Shown here: positions 1 through 47,953 of the stretch, one piece after another
Layout: each line of letters starts with the position of its first letter
How positions within the stretch are numbered: the stretch's first letter is position 1
Assembly (NCBI GenBank): GCA_025352235.1
Contig: JANXTU010000346.1
Location: forward strand, 1 to 47,953
Source of the DNA: Fimbriiglobus sp.
GTDB taxonomy: Bacteria > Planctomycetota > Planctomycetia > Gemmatales > Gemmataceae
Length of the DNA: 47,953 bases
Direction of reading: 5' to 3'
Made by a program: the position numbers and the translations under genes
Notes under the pieces: model-generated
Database searches by the model: none
Told to the model about the DNA's origin: nothing
The model's input: only the letters and a program-made list of their open reading frames with translations

Positions 1-1
1 G

Positions 2-211
2 CTGGCCTACCACATGTGGTTCGAAGTCCGCATCGACGGCCAATGGCTCGCCCTCGACGGCACCCTCGGCCAAGGCTCCGTCGGCCCCGGCCACCTCAAA
101 ATCACCGACAGCCACTGGGACGGCGAACGCGGCTTCACACCGTTGCTGCCGGTGCTGAACGTCTTGGGGGCCCAGCCGAAAGTGACCATCGCCACGGTGG
201 AGGGACGGTAA
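2..211 (+). CDS. Transglutaminase-like family protein, C-terminal fragment (truncated by window start)
   Basis: Open frame from window edge, LAYHMWFEVRIDGQWLALDGTLGQGSVGPGHLKITDSHWDG; resembles the HxWxEVxxxGxWxxxDxTLGQ part of transglutaminase-like domains. Confidence 0.7.
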   Translation: MAYHMWFEVRIDGQWLALDGTLGQGSVGPGHLKITDSHWDGERGFTPLLPVLNVLGAQPKVTIATVEGR

Positions 212-328
212 GGAATCCGGCGAGCCGAGGCGATGCCGGGAGTCCACGGACGGAGGGGACTTCCGGCGGCGAAACGAAGGGCAGGGTCAGCCGCAACTCA
301 AGAAGAAGTTCCTGGGGCGGCGTCTTGC

Positions 329-775
329 TCACACCGGAGCGTATGTGGCAAGGAATCCGTGCAACAGCCGATTCAGTTCAATACCGCACGCACTGAACGA
401 GTCGGCGGCAGACTCCAATTCTGGGATTTCAAACACTTTTCCAGTGTTGAGGCGAGCGGCTCCACTCGGTCCTGTACACGGCTTCCCGTGCAGAATGTCG
501 TTCCTCAACTTCACAAGTTTGGTGAACTCTTTGGCAGCCGATGCGAGATCCTCGCGTTCTGTTGATTTCGGCATGTTGCGGATCAGGTCACTCAGCTTCT
601 TCGCAATCTTGCCTGCCGTTAACTCATCCTTGACGAAGGTGTTCAGCGAGCCGGGGCGGATACGCTCCGCGCAATACACAGCATTCCACTCGCAGATGGC
701 GAAGCAGAAACACGCGGTGCCCAGTGCGTGCATGTAATCTGGATCGATGGGCTGTCGAAGGCGGTCGCCCTTCAT
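329..775 (-). CDS. HEPN-like hypothetical protein (RX4H motif RNDILH)
   Basis: 148 aa ORF, helical composition, KLRNDILHGKP motif near the C-terminus as in HEPN/RNase-type domains. Confidence 0.55.
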   Translation of the reverse strand: MKGDRLRQPIDPDYMHALGTACFCFAICEWNAVYCAERIRPGSLNTFVKDELTAGKIAKKLSDLIRNMPKSTEREDLASAAKEFTKLVKLRNDILHGKPCTGPSGAARLNTGKVFEIPELESAADSFSACGIELNRLLHGFLATYAPV

Positions 776-808
776 CGCGTAGCGTTCTCCAGTCGTGTGC
801 TTTCAGCC

Positions 809-915
809 GCCGAATGAGACGTTCAGCAGAATCGGGTCCGGAGTGTCCGGACCTCTTTCGATTCCGTCTAATTTCCCAGCGACACCGATTCTGCTGCAAC
901 GGCGAAGAGTTAGGC
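809..915 (-). other. Putative integron attC-like recombination site (complete palindromic architecture)
   Basis: Minus strand: GCCTAAC-TCTTCGCC-GTTGCAGCAGAATCGG ... CCGATTCTGCTGAAC-GTCTC-ATTCGGC. L''/L' arms pair over 15 bp with one extrahelical G (GTT-G-CAGC / GCTG-AAC). Outer boxes GCCTAAC/ATTCGGC are partly complementary. Confidence 0.6.
836..852. repeat. Small hairpin GTCCGGA-GTG-TCCGGAC inside the attC-like site
   Basis: Perfect 7-bp arms with 3-nt loop. Confidence 0.7.
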
Positions 916-1245
916 AGAATGACGACGAACCACCAATACCCTACGACGGCGTCAATCGGCCTCAACTCAAGCACCCCGCCTCGCCGTCGAACGGGGCTGC
1001 GTCCGGGGTGCGCCCCGAAGGCCGAATTTGCAGCTCCACCCGCGCCGCAAGCCAAGAAACTGGCCGCGAGGCCGCATCGCTCATTTCTCCTAAGCCATTC
1101 ACCGCTAGAGCTTTAGCCACCATTCAAACCGCCCGGCAAATTTGAAGTTCCTTGGGCGGCGCTCGCCCTTCAAACGCTACATACTGCCGGAGCCAAGTGC
1201 AGCGCCGCTTATAGCAGCCTGGTCGACAGCGGCTGGGCAATTCGG

Positions 1246-2352
1246 TCAGAAGGTCACGCTCCCCGGCGACGGGACTAGCGTCGGCAGGCCGATCAGGTCG
1301 TTCGGGGTCTTCCCTGGCAGGATCGGCTGGCGGAACAGGATTAGCGGCGCACCGCCGTTCACCGACATGTACGCCTCATACGCCGGAAACTCGTCCACCT
1401 TCCCAGAAAACACCACCTTCCGGGCGACCGGGTCCACGATCAGGAACCCGATCACGTCCATGTCCGCGATCACCCCGGACCCGAAGACTAACGGGATCGA
1501 GGAGGACATCTTGATCGGCACCTTGACCGCCGGGAGCGGCACCCCGAGCAGCGGCGGCAGGATCGGGCCGGCGATCATCCGCAGGGTCGATCCGAACGCC
1601 GTCCGGAGTACCGCGCCCGTGACCGGATCGACCTCGATGCTCTCCCCGCCGACGTGCGTGGTGGCCAGCGTGGGCGGGGACTTAGTGAAGTCGAACACCA
1701 TATCCGTGTGCATCTTGAAGTGGGCCGGGGTCCGCGTGACGGATGTGTCGAACGACCGGTTGCTGGTGAGGAACGCCCCCCGCTTGAGGCTCGGCGGGAA
1801 GGTCAGGGCGGGGACCGGCGGGCCGAACACGAACGTCTTGCCGGCGTGCGATCCGGCCGGGACGGTATGCGTGACCCCGGCGACGGTCCGGGGGATGAAC
1901 GAGTTGATCCAGACCTTGACCGTCGAGACGGCGGTCACCGCCGGGGGTGCTGGCGGGATCGGCCCCGGCGCGGCCGGCTGGATGTGGAGTTCGACCGTGC
2001 GGTCCTGAGCGTCGTTGCCGGTCGCCAGGGTCGAGCCCGACCACCGGGTCGAGTCGATCTGGGCCTCCGCCGCCCGGCCCTCGGTCATGAGGAAGCTCTT
2101 GACGGCCTGGGCACGCCGGCTGGAGAGATCCTGGTTGTAGGCCGCATTCCCGACCTTGCTCGCCCGCCCTGAGATCCAAAGGTGTTCCCCGTTAGCGAGC
2201 CGGCGAAAAACATTATCCCTGAGCCATTTCGTGTGTTCCGGCTTGGGCCGGTCGCCGTCGTGGTCGAAGTTGTCCAGAAACGTATGGAGCGAGGCCGGGT
2301 TGCTATCCGGAATGACCCGGACTGATCCCGGCCCCGTGGCCCGAAGCGTCAT
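1246..2352 (-). CDS. OmpA-like C-terminal domain protein
   Basis: FRRLANGEHLWISGRASKVGNAAYNQDLSSRRAQAVKSFLMTEGRAAEAQIDSTRWSGS resembles the OmpA peptidoglycan-associating fold. Start set at MTLRATG because an AAGGAG Shine-Dalgarno precedes it; the ORF extends upstream to 2394. Confidence 0.6.
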   Translation of the reverse strand: MTLRATGPGSVRVIPDSNPASLHTFLDNFDHDGDRPKPEHTKWLRDNVFRRLANGEHLWISGRASKVGNAAYNQDLSSRRAQAVKSFLMTEGRAAEAQIDSTRWSGSTLATGNDAQDRTVELHIQPAAPGPIPPAPPAVTAVSTVKVWINSFIPRTVAGVTHTVPAGSHAGKTFVFGPPVPALTFPPSLKRGAFLTSNRSFDTSVTRTPAHFKMHTDMVFDFTKSPPTLATTHVGGESIEVDPVTGAVLRTAFGSTLRMIAGPILPPLLGVPLPAVKVPIKMSSSIPLVFGSGVIADMDVIGFLIVDPVARKVVFSGKVDEFPAYEAYMSVNGGAPLILFRQPILPGKTPNDLIGLPTLVPSPGSVTF

Positions 2353-2382
2353 CTGGTGGTCTCCTTCATAGATTGTTGAGCC

Positions 2383-2470
2383 GCCGAACGACACAGCTCA
2401 GCAGTGGCACATCGACCACGCCTCATCGGGCAATGCCACCCGCCCGAATCCTGCTGAGAGGATTAATACC
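2383..2470 (-). other. Putative degenerate attC-like site (right half GTTCGGC intact)
   Basis: Minus strand ends CTGCTGAGCTGTGTC-GTTCGGC-GGC just upstream of the OmpA-like gene RBS; CTCAGCAG/CTGCTGAG and GTGGCA/TGCCAC inverted pairs; left outer box not convincing. Confidence 0.4.
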
Positions 2471-2496
2471 GCACGGATGCGAAAGATGACTACTCC

Positions 2497-3399
2497 CTAC
2501 TCATCCGTACCCCTCGGAGTCTCGGAGAACAGAGAAGCTATCGAGAACTTAAACGGGCGTTTCATGAATATGAAGTTATTTATATATTTATTTCTTTGAT
2601 TGATCAGGTTATCGACGCGTTGATTGACGGCCACGTCGAATAGATGTACGGGCACGAGGCGTTCCTGCTCCAAGAAGAAACCCTCGTAATCGTGAAGGCG
2701 GAGGAAGTCGAAGACATTCGCTGGCGCGCCATAATTATGTCGGGCCTCGCTCTCGACCAGCACTACCGGGCAGTCTCTAGCCAGTATCCCCTCTGCGCCC
2801 TCCAATACGGCCAGTTCGTGGCCCTCAACGTCGATCTTGATGAATCCGACCGGCTGTCGGACGACGTCGTCCAGTCGATCAACCCTGCACGAAATCGAGC
2901 GGAAGCCGAGGTAGCCATCCAGTCCATTCCGTTCGTCCAGTGTCGCCGAGCCGTGCATCTCAGCATATTCGCCGTGTGGGATGCGCAGCGTTGCTGTGCC
3001 GATTCGATTCGAGAGGGCAATTTCGTGAACGATCACTGAGGGGCTTAGCTTCCGGCGTAGCGTTTCTGCCAGCTCGGGTATCGGCTCGAAGCAATCCACC
3101 CTACAGCAAAGTTGCGACAAGCGGCCTGCAAAATAACCCTCGTTCGCTCCGACATCGATCGCGATGCGTGACGGATCGACCAAACGATCCAGCAGAAAGA
3201 ACTCGGGTTCATAGGTTTTCCATCGCTGCATTCGACGGAGTTCTACACGGAATGCAAATCGAGGGCCTCCGATCCAGGACGCCAGTTCTATGAGTTGCGA
3301 CAGAAGGAACATTCGGGATCCCTGTGGTGAATTGGGACGTGATCGTAAACTACGTGGTCGGATCGTGCCCCCCCCCCAGCGAGTGCGACGTGCCGTCAC
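2497..3399 (-). CDS. FkbM family methyltransferase (true start may be MFLLSQL at 3312)
   Basis: IAIDVGANEGYFAGRLSQL...FEPIPELAETLRRKL...RVDRLDDV...GFIKIDVEGHELAVLEGAEGIL are hallmark FkbM motifs. Confidence 0.88.
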   Translation of the reverse strand: MTARRTRWGGGTIRPRSLRSRPNSPQGSRMFLLSQLIELASWIGGPRFAFRVELRRMQRWKTYEPEFFLLDRLVDPSRIAIDVGANEGYFAGRLSQLCCRVDCFEPIPELAETLRRKLSPSVIVHEIALSNRIGTATLRIPHGEYAEMHGSATLDERNGLDGYLGFRSISCRVDRLDDVVRQPVGFIKIDVEGHELAVLEGAEGILARDCPVVLVESEARHNYGAPANVFDFLRLHDYEGFFLEQERLVPVHLFDVAVNQRVDNLINQRNKYINNFIFMKRPFKFSIASLFSETPRGTDE

Positions 3400-3443
3400 G
3401 TGCCACTCCGGACATTTTGGCTCCAGAGCGCGCTCTCCATTTT

Positions 3444-3500
3444 GCCGCCGAATGAGGCGTTCAGCGGAATCGGTCGATCCGCTCGCTACGACTATGGCGA
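3444..3500 (-). other. Putative attC-like half-site upstream of the FkbM gene
   Basis: Minus strand CCGATTCCGCTGAACGCCTCATTCGGCGGC matches the right half of the 809-915 site at 28/30 positions; left half degenerate. Confidence 0.4.
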
Positions 3501-3891
3501 TAGTGTAACGGATTCCGGGGCGACTGTCAAACAGGACCGCTGGAATGACGACTGATTGCCGGATATTTCACCGCAATCGAAGACTCCGACCCCGGGGCCG
3601 GCTCGCCCGGACGCCGGTTCGCCTTTTCTCGGCGGGTATGACAACAATTCTTGGAGCCACGGGGGAATGACTTGGGAATCCAAGCCAGGGGAGGCACCTG
3701 AAATCGGACGTAACTCCTTGCGGCGCTAGGTTGTTCCGAAAGTCGGACGTCATTCCACGATAGGGTGGGTGGGTTCACGCTGGAATGATGACTCCAAGAA
3801 TCGTTGGCACACCCTCGGATCAGTTCCCCTTGCGTTTTTCCCAAGTTCCGGCATAAGGCGTCCGGGGACTCGGGACGTTCGGGGGAAAACC

Positions 3892-5940
3892 ATGCGCAGT
3901 GTCGATCCAGTACAGTCCGTCGGGGAATTGGTCCGGCTCTCGGACGGCGCGGTGTGGCCGTTGATGCTCCCGATCACGCTGATCGGCTCCGGGTCGCAAT
4001 GCGACGTGCCTTTGACCGAAGGCCCCGAACTGATGTGCGCCCTCGCGCTCACGCCGGCCGGGCCGGCGCTTCGATCTTGGAATCCGGACGAGACGCGGAT
4101 CGATGGCCTCGCCACGGCGGCGGCGCTGTTGACCGACGGCCGAGAACTGCGCATCGGGGCACAGGAATTCCGATTGACCTGGAAGCCGTTCGTTCAAGCG
4201 GGTGATGCGGAACTCCGCGACCAACTGCGGATCGGGCGGGAGAAATTCCGCACCGAACGCAAGAAGATCGAAGCCGAGCATACCCTCCGGGCCAAGCGGC
4301 TCGACCAAGACGCCGGGCGATTGCGGGAAGGGGAACGAGCGTTAGCCGCCGAGCGGATTCGCGTCCGCGCGATCTACCGGCGATGCATTCAGCGGATCAA
4401 ATCGAAATGGTCGGCCGAACGCGACTCGGCGGACCTCGAACGGGCGAATCACGAATTGTCCGAGGCTCGCTTCCGCGAATTTGCCGAGCGCCGGCGCGTC
4501 GAACTCGACCGACTCGGGGATCAATTGACCGGCGACAAAGCCCGCGTGCAAGCGGCGTGGGAATTGATAGCCGAGGGACAGCGCCGCGCGATCACGGACC
4601 GATCGCAAGCCGATGAATGGCTCGCCCGCCAGCGTGAGGCACTCGACTTGCGGGCGAAGATGTTCCACGAGCAGCAACGGTTACGCGAAGGGAATCGGGA
4701 GGTTTCGGATGCGCGGCCATCGGCGTTGATCACCGAGATCGCCGGGTTGGAAGCGCGGGCTACGAACCTTCGGCAGTCGATCGCCGCGCTCCAGGCCAAG
4801 CGGGAATCGACCGCAGCAGAAGGGGTTTCGTCGTTCGCCCCGGTCGCATTGGAACCGACCCGCGTTTCGCGCGGCGCGGCGCAGCGGGCGGATAGTTTGC
4901 TGACCGAACTCCAAGAGCGGGAGCGGGAACTCGCGCGCGAGCGGCAAATTCAAAGTCATCTCCGCGGGGAACTCGAAACCCGCGCATCCGATCTCGGCGA
5001 TCAGCGGGCCATTCTGGTCGAACAAATCGCGGCGCTCACCGCGGCCCGGGATCTCTGGCATACCGCCGAAAGCCAAACGGTGGACGAACTCCACGCGCTC
5101 GCCATCGGGGTGCGATCCGAAGAGCAATCGCTCGACGAACGCGAACGCGACCTGTACGCGGCCGAGCGAAGGCGTCGGAGCGACGATCACGCGCTGGTCG
5201 AATTGCGCTTCAAACTCGAAAACTGGCAAGTCGCCCTCGCGGCGAAAGAAGCGAGCGTGCAATCCGAAGCGGATCAACTCGGCGAACAATTAGCCGCGAA
5301 ACAAACGCAGATGGATCGCTGGGAAGCGTCCCTCGGCGACACCGCGGCATCGTGGGCTGAACTCCGGCGGCGGGAAGTCTCATTTCTGCGCGCCGAACTC
5401 GACCAACTGGCGCTCGCCCAGGCCGACCACGCGGCGGCCGCGGCGGAGGCCCGCCGACTCCACGCGGACTTCACGGCGCAACTCGTCGCGATCGCGGCCC
5501 GCGACCTCGCGCGCACGGGGGACAAACGCGGCTCGACCCGCCGCGTTCGGGTTTTGGAAAAGCGTTGGCAGGCCCATTTCCGCCGCGAAGAAACTCGGCT
5601 CGTCCGCACTGAAGATCGCATTCGTCGGGAACGGGAAGAACTCGACGACCGCGATCGACGGGTACGACGGGAAGCCGATTCTGTCCTCGCGCAGAGACGG
5701 ACCGATGCCCTGGCCCGGATCGAGTTCGACCGCGACCGCTTGGCCGCGGACCGCAGACTGCACGAAGCTCGCGGCGAAGCCGAGTTGGAAACGCAGCTGC
5801 GCTTTCGGACCGAAGAAGATGCCCGCCGCTTGCGGGGCGAAATCGCCCGGATGGCGCAATCGATCCTCACGGCGAATTTGACTCACCCGGACGAACCGGA
5901 CGCGATCATCCTGCCCTTGAAACTGGTCCGGGCGGCATGA
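3892..5940 (+). CDS. FHA-like N-terminal domain protein with long charged coiled coil
   Basis: N-terminus LIGSGSQCDVPL...RIDG...LTDGRELRIGAQEF resembles a degenerate FHA fold; followed by about 500 aa of Arg/Glu-rich heptad-like sequence. Confidence 0.6.
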   Translation: MRSVDPVQSVGELVRLSDGAVWPLMLPITLIGSGSQCDVPLTEGPELMCALALTPAGPALRSWNPDETRIDGLATAAALLTDGRELRIGAQEFRLTWKPFVQAGDAELRDQLRIGREKFRTERKKIEAEHTLRAKRLDQDAGRLREGERALAAERIRVRAIYRRCIQRIKSKWSAERDSADLERANHELSEARFREFAERRRVELDRLGDQLTGDKARVQAAWELIAEGQRRAITDRSQADEWLARQREALDLRAKMFHEQQRLREGNREVSDARPSALITEIAGLEARATNLRQSIAALQAKRESTAAEGVSSFAPVALEPTRVSRGAAQRADSLLTELQERERELARERQIQSHLRGELETRASDLGDQRAILVEQIAALTAARDLWHTAESQTVDELHALAIGVRSEEQSLDERERDLYAAERRRRSDDHALVELRFKLENWQVALAAKEASVQSEADQLGEQLAAKQTQMDRWEASLGDTAASWAELRRREVSFLRAELDQLALAQADHAAAAAEARRLHADFTAQLVAIAARDLARTGDKRGSTRRVRVLEKRWQAHFRREETRLVRTEDRIRREREELDDRDRRVRREADSVLAQRRTDALARIEFDRDRLAADRRLHEARGEAELETQLRFRTEEDARRLRGEIARMAQSILTANLTHPDEPDAIILPLKLVRAA

Positions 5941-6081
5941 CTCGCCACCGCACGCCCGGTGCAACCGTCAAACTCGATGTCCGAGCGACGGCTCTTTCGA
6001 TGGAATACCCTGATTTTTATGGGGGAAGCGGTTCCATGGCGTAAGCTGGGATTGTAATAGTTGCAATCTCGGAGTTCCGTC

Positions 6082-16575: not shown

Positions 16576-19500
16576 ATGCACGACCTCCGTTGTCTCGCAA
16601 TTCTCATTTCGACAATTCTTAATTCCCAACTCCGCGCCGCCGAGCCGGCTGCGAATATCGATTTCTTCGAATCCAAGATTCGCCCCGTTCTCGTGGAACA
16701 TTGCTACTCTTGTCACAATTCGGCTAAGACCGCCAAGGGCGGGCTGGCTCTCGACGACCGGGCGTCGTTGCGAAAAGGCGGTACGGAAGGTGTCATCGTC
16801 GTTACCGGGAAGCCCGAAAATAGCCGGTTGATCGCGGCTCTGAAACACGAACTCGACGGCAAGGCGATGCCGAAGAACGGACCGAAGCTCGACAAGAGCG
16901 TCATCGCCGACTTCGAGAAATGGATCACGCTCGGCATGCCCGACCCGCGCGACAAGCCGCCGACGGCCGAAGAATTGACGAAAGCCACCTCGTGGGAAAC
17001 GATCCTCGAAGCCCGCAAGAAATGGTGGAGTTTCCAGCCGATCCGCAATCCGACGCCGCCAGAATCCGGGTGGTCAAAGCACCCGGTCGACCAATTCATC
17101 GCGGCGAAACTCAAAGAGAATAGGCTCGAACCGGGCGCACCCGCCGATGCTGTCACGCTCATCCGCAGGTTGTATTTCACCCTGATCGGCCTGCCTCCGG
17201 CGCCGGCCGACGTGGAACGATGGACGACGAAGTTGAAGTCCGAAGGCGGCTATGAAGAACTCGTCGATCACCTGCTCGGCACCCCGCAATTCGGCGAGCA
17301 CTGGGCCCGCCACTGGATGGACTGGACGCGCTACGCCGATTCGCACGGCTCCGAAGGCGACCCGGAAATCGTCGGGGCGTGGCACTACCGCGACTACCTC
17401 ATCCGCGCGCTCAACGCCGATGTGCCGTACGACCAACTCGTCCGCGAGCACGTCGCCGGAGATTTGTTGAAGGCCCCGCGCATCAACAAGAAACTCGAAC
17501 TCAACGAATCGGCGATCGGCACCGCGCACTGGCGGATGGTCTTCCACGGCTTCGCCCCGACCGACGCGCTCGAAGAAAAGGTCCGTTTCATCGACGACCA
17601 GATCAACACCTTCTCGAAGGCCTTCTTAGGCCTCACGGTGTCGTGCGCCCGTTGCCACGATCACAAATTCGATCCGATTAGCCACAAAGATTACTACGCC
17701 TTGTTCGGGGTGCTCGCGTCGAACCGGCCGGGGCGAATCGCCGTGGATAGCCCGGAGAAGTCGGAAAAGAATAAGGCTGAGTTGGCGGCGCTGAAAGCGA
17801 AAATCCGCGAAGTCGTCGGCGACGCTTGGTTGGCCGGCATCGGAGGGGGCTTGAAGACCGCGAACGACTCGGGGTCGATCCTCAAGCTCGTACGGGAGTT
17901 GAAAGCGGTCGACGGCGACGCGGAGAAATTCAAAGCCGTATTCGACCGCCACATGATGGAATCGGAGAAAGATCGCCGCGCGATCGCGCGGCCGACGGCA
18001 AACACGTTGAAGAACTGGGACTTGGCGGATGCGAACGATGCGGCGACTTGGTTCCGGGTCGGTGGCGCGACGCGCTCCGCGAACGCCGACTTCGCCGTGG
18101 CGACCGATGGCGACCGGGCGCTGGCCGGGGTCTATCCGCCCGGCATTTACTCGCACGGACTTTCCACGAAGCACGCCGCGAGACTCGAATCTCCCCCCGT
18201 CAAACTCACCGCCGATTCCGAACTCTGGGTCCGCGTCATAGGCGACGGCGGCGCGACGCTGCGGTATGTCGTCCAGGATTACCCGCGCGATGGAACCGTC
18301 TTCCCGGTTCACCGGCTGACACCGCAATGGCACTGGCAGCGGTTCGACCTGACCTACTGGACGGGCGACGAGATCCACATCGAATTGGCCGCGTCGCGGG
18401 ATGCGCCGTTGATGGCAGGTGGTTCCGAGCGATCTTGGTTCGGGATCCGCGAGGCTAGGATCGTCAAAAAAGGGACGTTCCAGCCGCCGCTCGAAACCAT
18501 CGACTGGCGTGCGCCGCTCAACGCGGCTTTCGCGCCGAAGATACCGAACTCTTCGGCCGAAGCCGCCGAGGCCTACGCCTCCGCCATTTTCGCGGCCGTC
18601 CGCGAATGGAAGAGCGGCCGAGGATCGCCCACGACGGCCGCGCTGCTGGCGAAGTGTTTGGAAGAAGGATTGCTATCGAACAAATTCGCGGACATGAAAG
18701 CCGTCCAGCCCCTCATCGATGAATACCGCAAACTCGAAGCCGAGATCGCCGTGCCGACGCGGGTACCCGGTTTGATGGAGGGCGTCGTGCGGAATCAGCC
18801 GCTGCTCGACCGGGGCGACCACAAAAAGCTGAAAGCCGAAGTGCCCCGGCGATTTCTGGAAGCCATCGACCCGACCCCCTACAAGGGAACGGACAGCGGT
18901 CGATTGCAACTCGCCGAAGATATGCTGAGCGACAAAAATCCGTTGACCCAGCGCGTGATCGTCAACCGGCTTTGGCACCACTCGTTCGGACGGGGACTTG
19001 CGCCGACGCCCGACAACTTCGGCCGGCTGGGCCTCGAGCCGACGCACCCGGAACTCCTCGATTTCTTAGCGACACGCTTTGTCAAACAAGGCTGGTCGAT
19101 CAAGGACGCGCTGCGATTTTTGGTCACATCCAAAACTTGGCAACTCGCTTCGAAGCCGACCGAACAAGCTCGGCGACTCGATCCGGACAACCGCTGGTTC
19201 TCGCACGCCTTGTTGCGCCGGCTCGACGCCGAGGCGATCCGCGATTCCCTGCTCGCGGTCAGCGGGTCGTTGAATCGCGAACTCTACGGTGCCCCCGTCG
19301 GCGGCAATTCGGATCGCCGGAGTCTGTACGTCCGCGTCCAACGCACGGCCCTCGATCCGTTCCTGCGGGCCTTCGATTTCCCCGAGCCGTTCAGCGCCGT
19401 CGGCCGGCGCGATGTCACCAATGTCCCGGCCCAAGCGCTGACGCTGCTGAACGATCCCCGCGTCGCGGCGCTCGCCGACCATTGGGCCGGACAAATCCTC

Positions 19501-47382: not shown

Positions 47383-47490
47383 AGAAAGTCGATTCGCCCA
47401 GGGTGTATGCTCGACGGACTTAAGAGTGACACATCGCGAAACGCCGATTTTCCGATGCGTCGGACTCCGTCCCACTTCGGTTTTGAAAGC

Positions 47491-47619
47491 CGAGCCGAGC
47501 GGAGAACGTCGCTTTTCGCTCCGCGAAAAGTGGTTGACGCCAGCACTCGCGTTCCGCACCTCGCGGGCGAGCCCAGCTACTTTTCGCGGAGCGAAAAGCG
47601 ACTTTTTCCGCTCGGCTCG
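47491..47619. repeat. Large imperfect inverted repeat (41-nt arms, 39/41 identical) in an apparently non-coding tail
   Basis: Arms 47491-47531 and 47579-47619; each contains the palindrome CGCTTTTCGCTCCGCGAAAAG. Confidence 0.85.
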
Positions 47620-47953
47620 GATAAGTTCCGCCAGTCTCGAACGAGCCCAGCCACTTTTCGCGGAGCAGTGTCAACCCAGACTGCGCTGAGAATAGCAACG
47701 ATTCTTGGAGGTGGCTGGAACTGGGCTGGGCCTGGTGGGGTCATCGAACGCGGATGCGGTATTTGAGATATCGTCTCGTCGTGCTTCTTGGAGGCGTTCC
47801 CGGCATTCTTCCAAAAGCGATTGTTCCAACACCCCGCCTCTGCAGGCTCGGGGATTTCTTCAAATTTCATGACGCAAGTCATTGCTGAACAAGAGGATCG
47901 GCCACAAGGGCCGTTTCGGCTCCGATTCTTCCAATTCTTTTAAATGGTTCCAA

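Follow-up and report, generated by a model that had tools for sequence, protein, structure and literature searches.

Three consecutive minus-strand genes at the left end of a planctomycete contig (Fimbriiglobus sp., JANXTU010000346.1) raise the question of whether they were acquired as the gene cassettes of an integron. The integron is a bacterial gene-capturing device, and integrons have mostly been studied as a single integrase gene (intI) beside a single attI site. A sequence-only reading of the contig had proposed a degenerate cassette array or CALIN, a cluster of attC sites lacking integron-integrase (Cury et al., IntegronFinder; PMC9024848). The window analyzed here is a stretch of 47,953 nt on contig C49 of genome G000, a bin of 613 contigs, 5.49 Mb and 90.4% completeness; the family comparison set was 95 genomes, and the genus was represented by G000 and three others, including G046 and G047. 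Positions 226–3569 are very probably a small, decayed integron cassette array headed by a promoter, a member of a dispersed cassette system that has lost its integrase. The evidence consists of a site pattern found three times where 0.16 matches were expected, an independent attC model, an integrase remnant on contig C407, attI cores, and the junctions shared by two terminal blocks, E1 and E2. It is joined by the absence of the genes from the genus at the DNA level, the lower GC content of two of them, and a nearest relative of one of them in another phylum. The features, in the order in which they are met on the minus strand, are as follows.

3474–3569, minus strand: promoter block P, a putative Pc (TTGACA at 3530–3525, 17-nt spacer, TACACT at 3507–3502), reading toward the FkbM gene and the cassettes
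3444–3473, minus strand: right half only of a type A site, CCGATTCCGCTGAACGCCTCATTCGGCGGC, occupying the attI position of the related array head on C189
2497–3312, minus strand: cassette gene 1, FkbM-family methyltransferase, 271 aa (TIGR01444, PF05050)
2380–2474, minus strand: decayed type B attC with intact right half GCTGAGCTGTGTCGTTCGGC and a left arm without a good R″ box
1246–2352, minus strand: cassette gene 2, OmpA C-terminal domain protein (PF00691), 368 aa from ATG
968–1161, minus strand: terminal block E1, beginning CGCCGCCCAAGGAACTTC, after the OmpA-like gene
806–929, minus strand: attC-like site of type A, with arms GCCTAACTCTTCGCCGTTGCAGCAGAATCGG (left, carrying an extrahelical G) and CCGATTCTGCTGAACGTCTCATTCGGC (right)
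329–775, minus strand: cassette gene 3, 148-aa HEPN-like protein with an RxxxxH motif (RNDILH)
226–324, minus strand: terminal block E2, beginning GCCGCCCCAGGAACTTC, 4 nt past the HEPN-like stop codon

Each of the three genes follows an att-type site

Only three sequences in the window fit the pattern TGA[AG]C-N5-6-[AG]TTCGGC; they lie on the minus strand at 806–835, 2380–2402 and 3444–3473, one upstream of each gene. Over 200 runs of a first-order Markov control, the average was 0.16 matches and no run had more than 2. All three genes lie on this strand and start 28–130 nt after R′, the arrangement expected of cassettes; the distance from site end to ATG is about 31 nt for the HEPN-like, 28 nt for the OmpA-like and 130 nt for the FkbM gene. 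These positions and the spacing agree with the sequence-only reading, which had put the sites 30–130 nt upstream of the genes, and so do the 28 of 30 identical positions (93.3%) between 806–835 and 3444–3473 and the intact GTTCGGC of the third site near 2383. That reading overlooked that 806–835 belongs to a full 124-nt element and that 3444–3473 is without a left half.

The 124-nt element, an inverted repeat that we call type A, has full near-identical copies on C224, C135, C127 and C39, and 806–929 folded better than its shuffles (z = −3.2) on the plus strand, which is the bottom strand of the attC. The half-site at 3444–3473 is 100% identical to right ends in C135, C39 and C224. Exact TGAACGNNTNRTTCGGC was found at seven places in the genome. 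At six of these, a gene closely follows a copy of the type A element or of its right end; the seventh, on C462, lies within a reading frame and looks like chance. The concern that the motif might occur widely outside cassettes was therefore not borne out. The right half of 2380–2474 had 12 genome-wide matches, versus 3 for the reversed control.

Covariance model of the attC class

A second class of sites, type B, has the form GCCGAACCAGGCGCTGCAGCAGACGG...CCGCTGCTGAGCTGGGTCGTTCGGC and includes the right half at 2383. The bottom strand of this class folds like an attC, with the R″/R′ pair GCCGAAC/GTTCGGC, an unpaired spacer and an L″/L′ stem in which one G is extrahelical and, in most cases, there is another bulge. 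When the type B regular expression was searched beside intI across the fetched relatives, arrays were found in G094, G093 and G027 only, the other intI loci having different sites or contig ends. A covariance model, R1, was built from the attC sites of arrays beside full-length intI in these three genomes; because the sites are linked to intI and come from other genomes of the family, circularity is avoided. In R1, 91% of cells were paired and 8 pairs were changed on both sides. The covariation score and the percentage paired were reached by none of 500 shuffles, and slid controls were 24–44% paired. In an array of more than ten attCs in G094 (L096, G094:C13, 6602–19197), the cassettes and intI are co-oriented and intI follows the last attC, a reversal of the usual integron layout.

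Applied to G000 with 150 scored candidates, so that its counts are lower bounds, and with E-values that are rough owing to a short calibration, R1 found at least about 30 attC sites above 39 bits. Several contigs carried arrays of 2–5 sites (C378 with five, C196, C476, C184 and C367). Hits of 26–85 bits at about 30 places elsewhere in the genome identify the attC class to which the window sites are assigned. Two sites connect type A with type B: the C189 copy through its left end, GCCGAACCAGCCGTTGCAGCAG, and one in G046 that combines a type B-like left part with a type A right part, its R boxes GCCGAAT/ATTCGGC matching perfectly. The type A variants of C189 (R″ GCCGAAC) and G046 (R″ GCCGAAT) fit their own R′ boxes and scored 16–22 bits with R1. 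In the family, attC-type sites were present in 79 of 95 genomes and intI above cut-off in 36 of 95, and much of the accessory gene traffic of this planctomycete family may thus use the attC route.

Scanning positions 1–4000 with R1 and filters off ranked the type A site (806–917) first with 14.0 bits and 2380–2474 third with 11.2 bits, while 3444–3473 gave a fragment only, and neither its fold nor R1 revealed a left half. Hits at 19484 (18.1 bits) and 40059 (16.5 bits) were dismissed as chance, having many non-canonical pairs or an R box alone. Since chance-level hits in the window reach 18.1 bits, the window sites are sub-threshold and are not good attCs taken alone; scanning with an attC model, the check proposed earlier, did give hits in this region in the form of R1, though not at convincing scores. 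They are placed in the class because their sequences match those of site types that either are good attCs or merge gradually into such sites, and 806–929 is the only predicted near-complete attC in the window, of a divergent repeated type.

The probable array head and the integrase remnant

The sequence TTGACA-N17-TACACT is the only promoter-like site in 1–3900; as 0.9 would be expected from shuffles, the consensus is weak taken alone. The surrounding block P, however, recurs on C473, C189 and C179, each time ahead of att sequence. On C189 the next elements are a complete attI with direct repeats, a gene and a type A site; on C473 they are a type B right half in decayed form and a gene. Homology of the window to the C189 head ends at about 3474, precisely where the type A right half starts. 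As P precedes a complete attI on C189, the window resembles the head of an array from which attI has disappeared. A run of ten C on the plus strand (3367–3376), between the head site and the FkbM start, is a possible slippage site.

No integron integrase above the TIGR02249 cut-off was found in G000 and none matched on C49, so that the earlier remark that no integrase was in view holds for the contig and, for an intact gene, for the genome assembly as well. An intI remnant is nevertheless present on C407. It encodes the IntI N-terminus (residues 1–78), 75% identical to IntI of G047, and is truncated where a transposase-like helix-turn-helix reading frame begins on the opposite strand; no further intI fragment was found on the fetched contigs of this genome. 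Divergent from the remnant are TTGACA-N17-AATGAT, the repeats TAGACAGAT and TGGGCAGAA 22 nt apart, AATTCTGTCCAATTACTGTTCGGC, a short gene and the 85-bit attC. This is a standard integron head, and G047 has the same arrangement with an intact intI and three direct repeats at 22-nt spacing.

The attI core CTGTCCAATT-N2-7-TTCGGC occurs four times in G000 (C407, C179, C135 and C189), only one of them beside intI sequence, once in G047, exactly upstream of the intact intI, and not at all in the 93 other family genomes. Paired direct repeats TAGACAGAA with 22-nt spacing were found at the same four places, versus none in shuffles, in the 190 kb of fetched G000 sequence. Window positions 3444–3569 contain neither TAGACAGAA repeats nor the attI core, and C49 has no intI adjoining an attI.

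Terminal blocks E1 and E2

Both E1 and E2 start with GCCGCCC(A/C)AGGAACTTC immediately past a gene. E1 is present in eight copies (the window, C135, C197, C378, C300, C224, C179 and a part in C89), of which seven lie directly downstream of a gene with an att site upstream, and most of the approximately 10 genome copies of E2 follow a cassette gene. Unrelated genes join these blocks at the identical base, and upstream of most of them stands an R′ end, an attC or an attI; the exceptions are C610 (E2, no att site detected) and C89 (an E1 fragment with the att site in the opposite orientation). E1 and E2 tend to lie where the 3′ side of an array meets host-like sequence. Folding gave no support to E2 being a full attC in its own right.

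A separate repeat of about 290 nt at window 47406–47697, with many short palindromes (TTTTCGCTCCGCGAAAAG in the copies on C130 and C473), was also seen on C39, C130, C89, C378, C407 and C179, several times adjoining E1 or attC sequence.

Proposed formation of the array

From these modules, the minus strand may be read as a Pc-like promoter (3530–3502), a hybrid att half-site (3473–3444), the FkbM gene, a decayed attC (2474–2380), the OmpA-like gene, a noncoding block with a type A attC (1161–806), the HEPN-like gene and E2 (324–226). Each gene would formerly have been carried as a circular cassette; the bottom strand of its attC would fold to a hairpin, and IntI would cut at (A/G)'TTCGGC and join the gene behind the promoter. 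On the simplest account, recombination or deletion would have put the end of a type A site in the place of the attI of the head. All three genes could be transcribed from the putative promoter P. Since no intact intI was found and the sites are decayed, the array is presumably immobile at present.

The three genes and their flanks

The gene labels given from the sequence alone stood for two of the three genes. The FkbM gene scored 83.4 bits with TIGR01444, above cut-off, and also matched PF05050; the OmpA-like gene matched PF00691 above cut-off (35 bits, E = 1.6e-8), and its alternative GTG start at 2394 falls inside the att site. The HEPN label comes from the RxxxxH motif, the protein matching no Pfam, NCBIfam or PADLOC family. 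Its sole relative found in 84,980 species genomes (one per species) is in a Verrucomicrobiales metagenome-assembled genome, with 71% identity, and as this is another phylum, the gene is consistent with horizontal transfer. Past the Verrucomicrobiales gene (L192, 463–1000), GCCTAACAAGACGCGG lies within about 10 nt and resembles the left end of an attC; GCCTAACAAG follows soon after the stop, yet the model finds no complete att site there. GC content is 54.4% for the FkbM, 55.5% for the HEPN-like and 67% for the OmpA-like gene, against 63% for the window.

Two plus-strand genes flank the array.

2–211, plus strand: 3′ end of a transglutaminase-like gene, array flank; the contig starts inside the gene
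3898–5940, plus strand: FHA/coiled-coil protein gene, right flank, outside the array

The FHA gene is kept in all four genomes of the genus (the G046 copy is 59% identical), and its neighbor differs in G046, the closest genome, being a DNA methyltransferase-like gene there. None of the three array genes had a DNA-level match in the three other genomes, so that, as the cassette proposal implied, no fixed gene order is shared with these relatives. The transglutaminase-like label is supported by a full-length homologue of 602 aa in G046. With regard to the boundaries suggested earlier, the FHA gene holds on the right, and the left is formed by E2 and the tail of a transglutaminase gene that is present three times in the assembly (C49, C473 with 95% and C179 with 94% identity). 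C49 and C473 start at the identical base in this gene and share 95% identity over 320 nt before diverging, which would reflect gene duplication or two strains; a strain mixture in the bin is possible. Between the array and the FHA gene, a repeat of about 70 nt (3630–3700) has at least 25 genome copies of 93–100% identity, frequently close to contig ends. Rfam gave no match in the window at gathering score and nothing meaningful in 1–6000 at E 10, indicating no known RNA or group II intron at the sites.

Alternative explanations

Several observations weigh against a decayed cassette array. The two scored sites of the window lie below the best chance-level hit, the 3444 site is a half-site only, and the decayed 2380 site is without a clear R″ box. 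A clean empty-site comparison was not found: the FHA and transglutaminase genes are on separate contigs in G046, and C473, which shares its start base with C49, runs into a different host gene and provides no empty site. The fragmentation and incompleteness of the bin, in which many array contigs stop within arrays, also mean that an intact intI may simply be missing from it and that the dispersal may partly be assembly breakage. In the extreme, the locus would be an intact, working piece of one large chromosomal integron, as the many att contigs ending in or near arrays (C39, C49, C130, C300, C317, C378 and C407) might suggest, since repeats would cause such ends. We consider this very unlikely because the C49 array is bounded by the conserved chromosomal FHA gene on its right and by E2 with the transglutaminase gene on its left, because other arrays end in E1 or E2 next to host-like genes, and because the C49 sites are decayed.

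Type A, E1, E2 and P could also be ordinary intergenic or miniature inverted-repeat transposable element (MITE)-like repeats between which three genes lie by chance. E1 and type A do form a contiguous 355-nt repeat on C49 and C135, partial copies without the right half exist on C197, C378 and C300, and the 3630–3700 element exemplifies other intergenic repeats of high copy number. Nearly all copies of type A, E1 and P, however, adjoin attC/attI or R′ ends, with junctions at an R″-like start, and the R″ boxes of the C189 and G046 variants fit R′ and score with the independent model, which makes this explanation highly improbable. Less far-fetched, though still unlikely, is that the cassettes were inserted singly into non-integron (attG-like) sites by an integrase from elsewhere, at a locus that never had its own attI. 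Single insertion is one proposed route to CALINs (PMC8618304), there is no attI sequence in the window, and the sites are spread over many contigs; but the same promoter block precedes a full attI with direct repeats on C189, and a partial type A attC at the head would not be expected from single insertion into a random site. The decayed array thus remains the preferred reading. The proposal of a degenerate array or CALIN was in this sense largely right, except that the 3444 site is no full attC and stands as a half-site behind a promoter. As a tentative extension, possible but on the doubtful side, we suggest a distributed integron in which scattered attI-promoter heads with short arrays ending in E1 or E2 were served in trans by a single, since-broken integrase.

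Comparison with known systems

In combining four exact attI cores and their direct repeats, additional arrays headed by a promoter and a broken integrase only, this genome is a natural setting for the origin of CALINs, where the question is whether intI was lost from many platforms or one integrase acted at many places. Like a CALIN, the window has same-strand, unrelated genes split by attC-type sites with no intact intI nearby; unlike the CALIN definition, it has its own promoter block and shared terminal blocks, and its attCs score below confidence. Covariance models of Planctomycetes attC sites were published earlier (PMC8352920), and the present class resembles the sedentary chromosomal integrons of Planctomycetes in having R″/R′, a spacer, L″/L′ and extrahelical bases. 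Descriptions across the family, however, mostly deal with one intI-attI platform per array, whereas here there are several attI heads and the only intI found is truncated. Mobile integrons are known to have cassettes with partial attI sites (PMC12901181). The present genome shares with these Delta-attI-type cassettes and attG sites that array genes are flanked by partial attI or non-canonical sites, which in the mobile integrons can still recombine (PMC12901181); in contrast to those mobile resistance integrons, the attI copies here head chromosomal arrays together with a promoter. Within the literature searched, the occurrence in one genome of multiple attI-promoter heads together with shared terminal blocks and a single broken integrase appears to be new.

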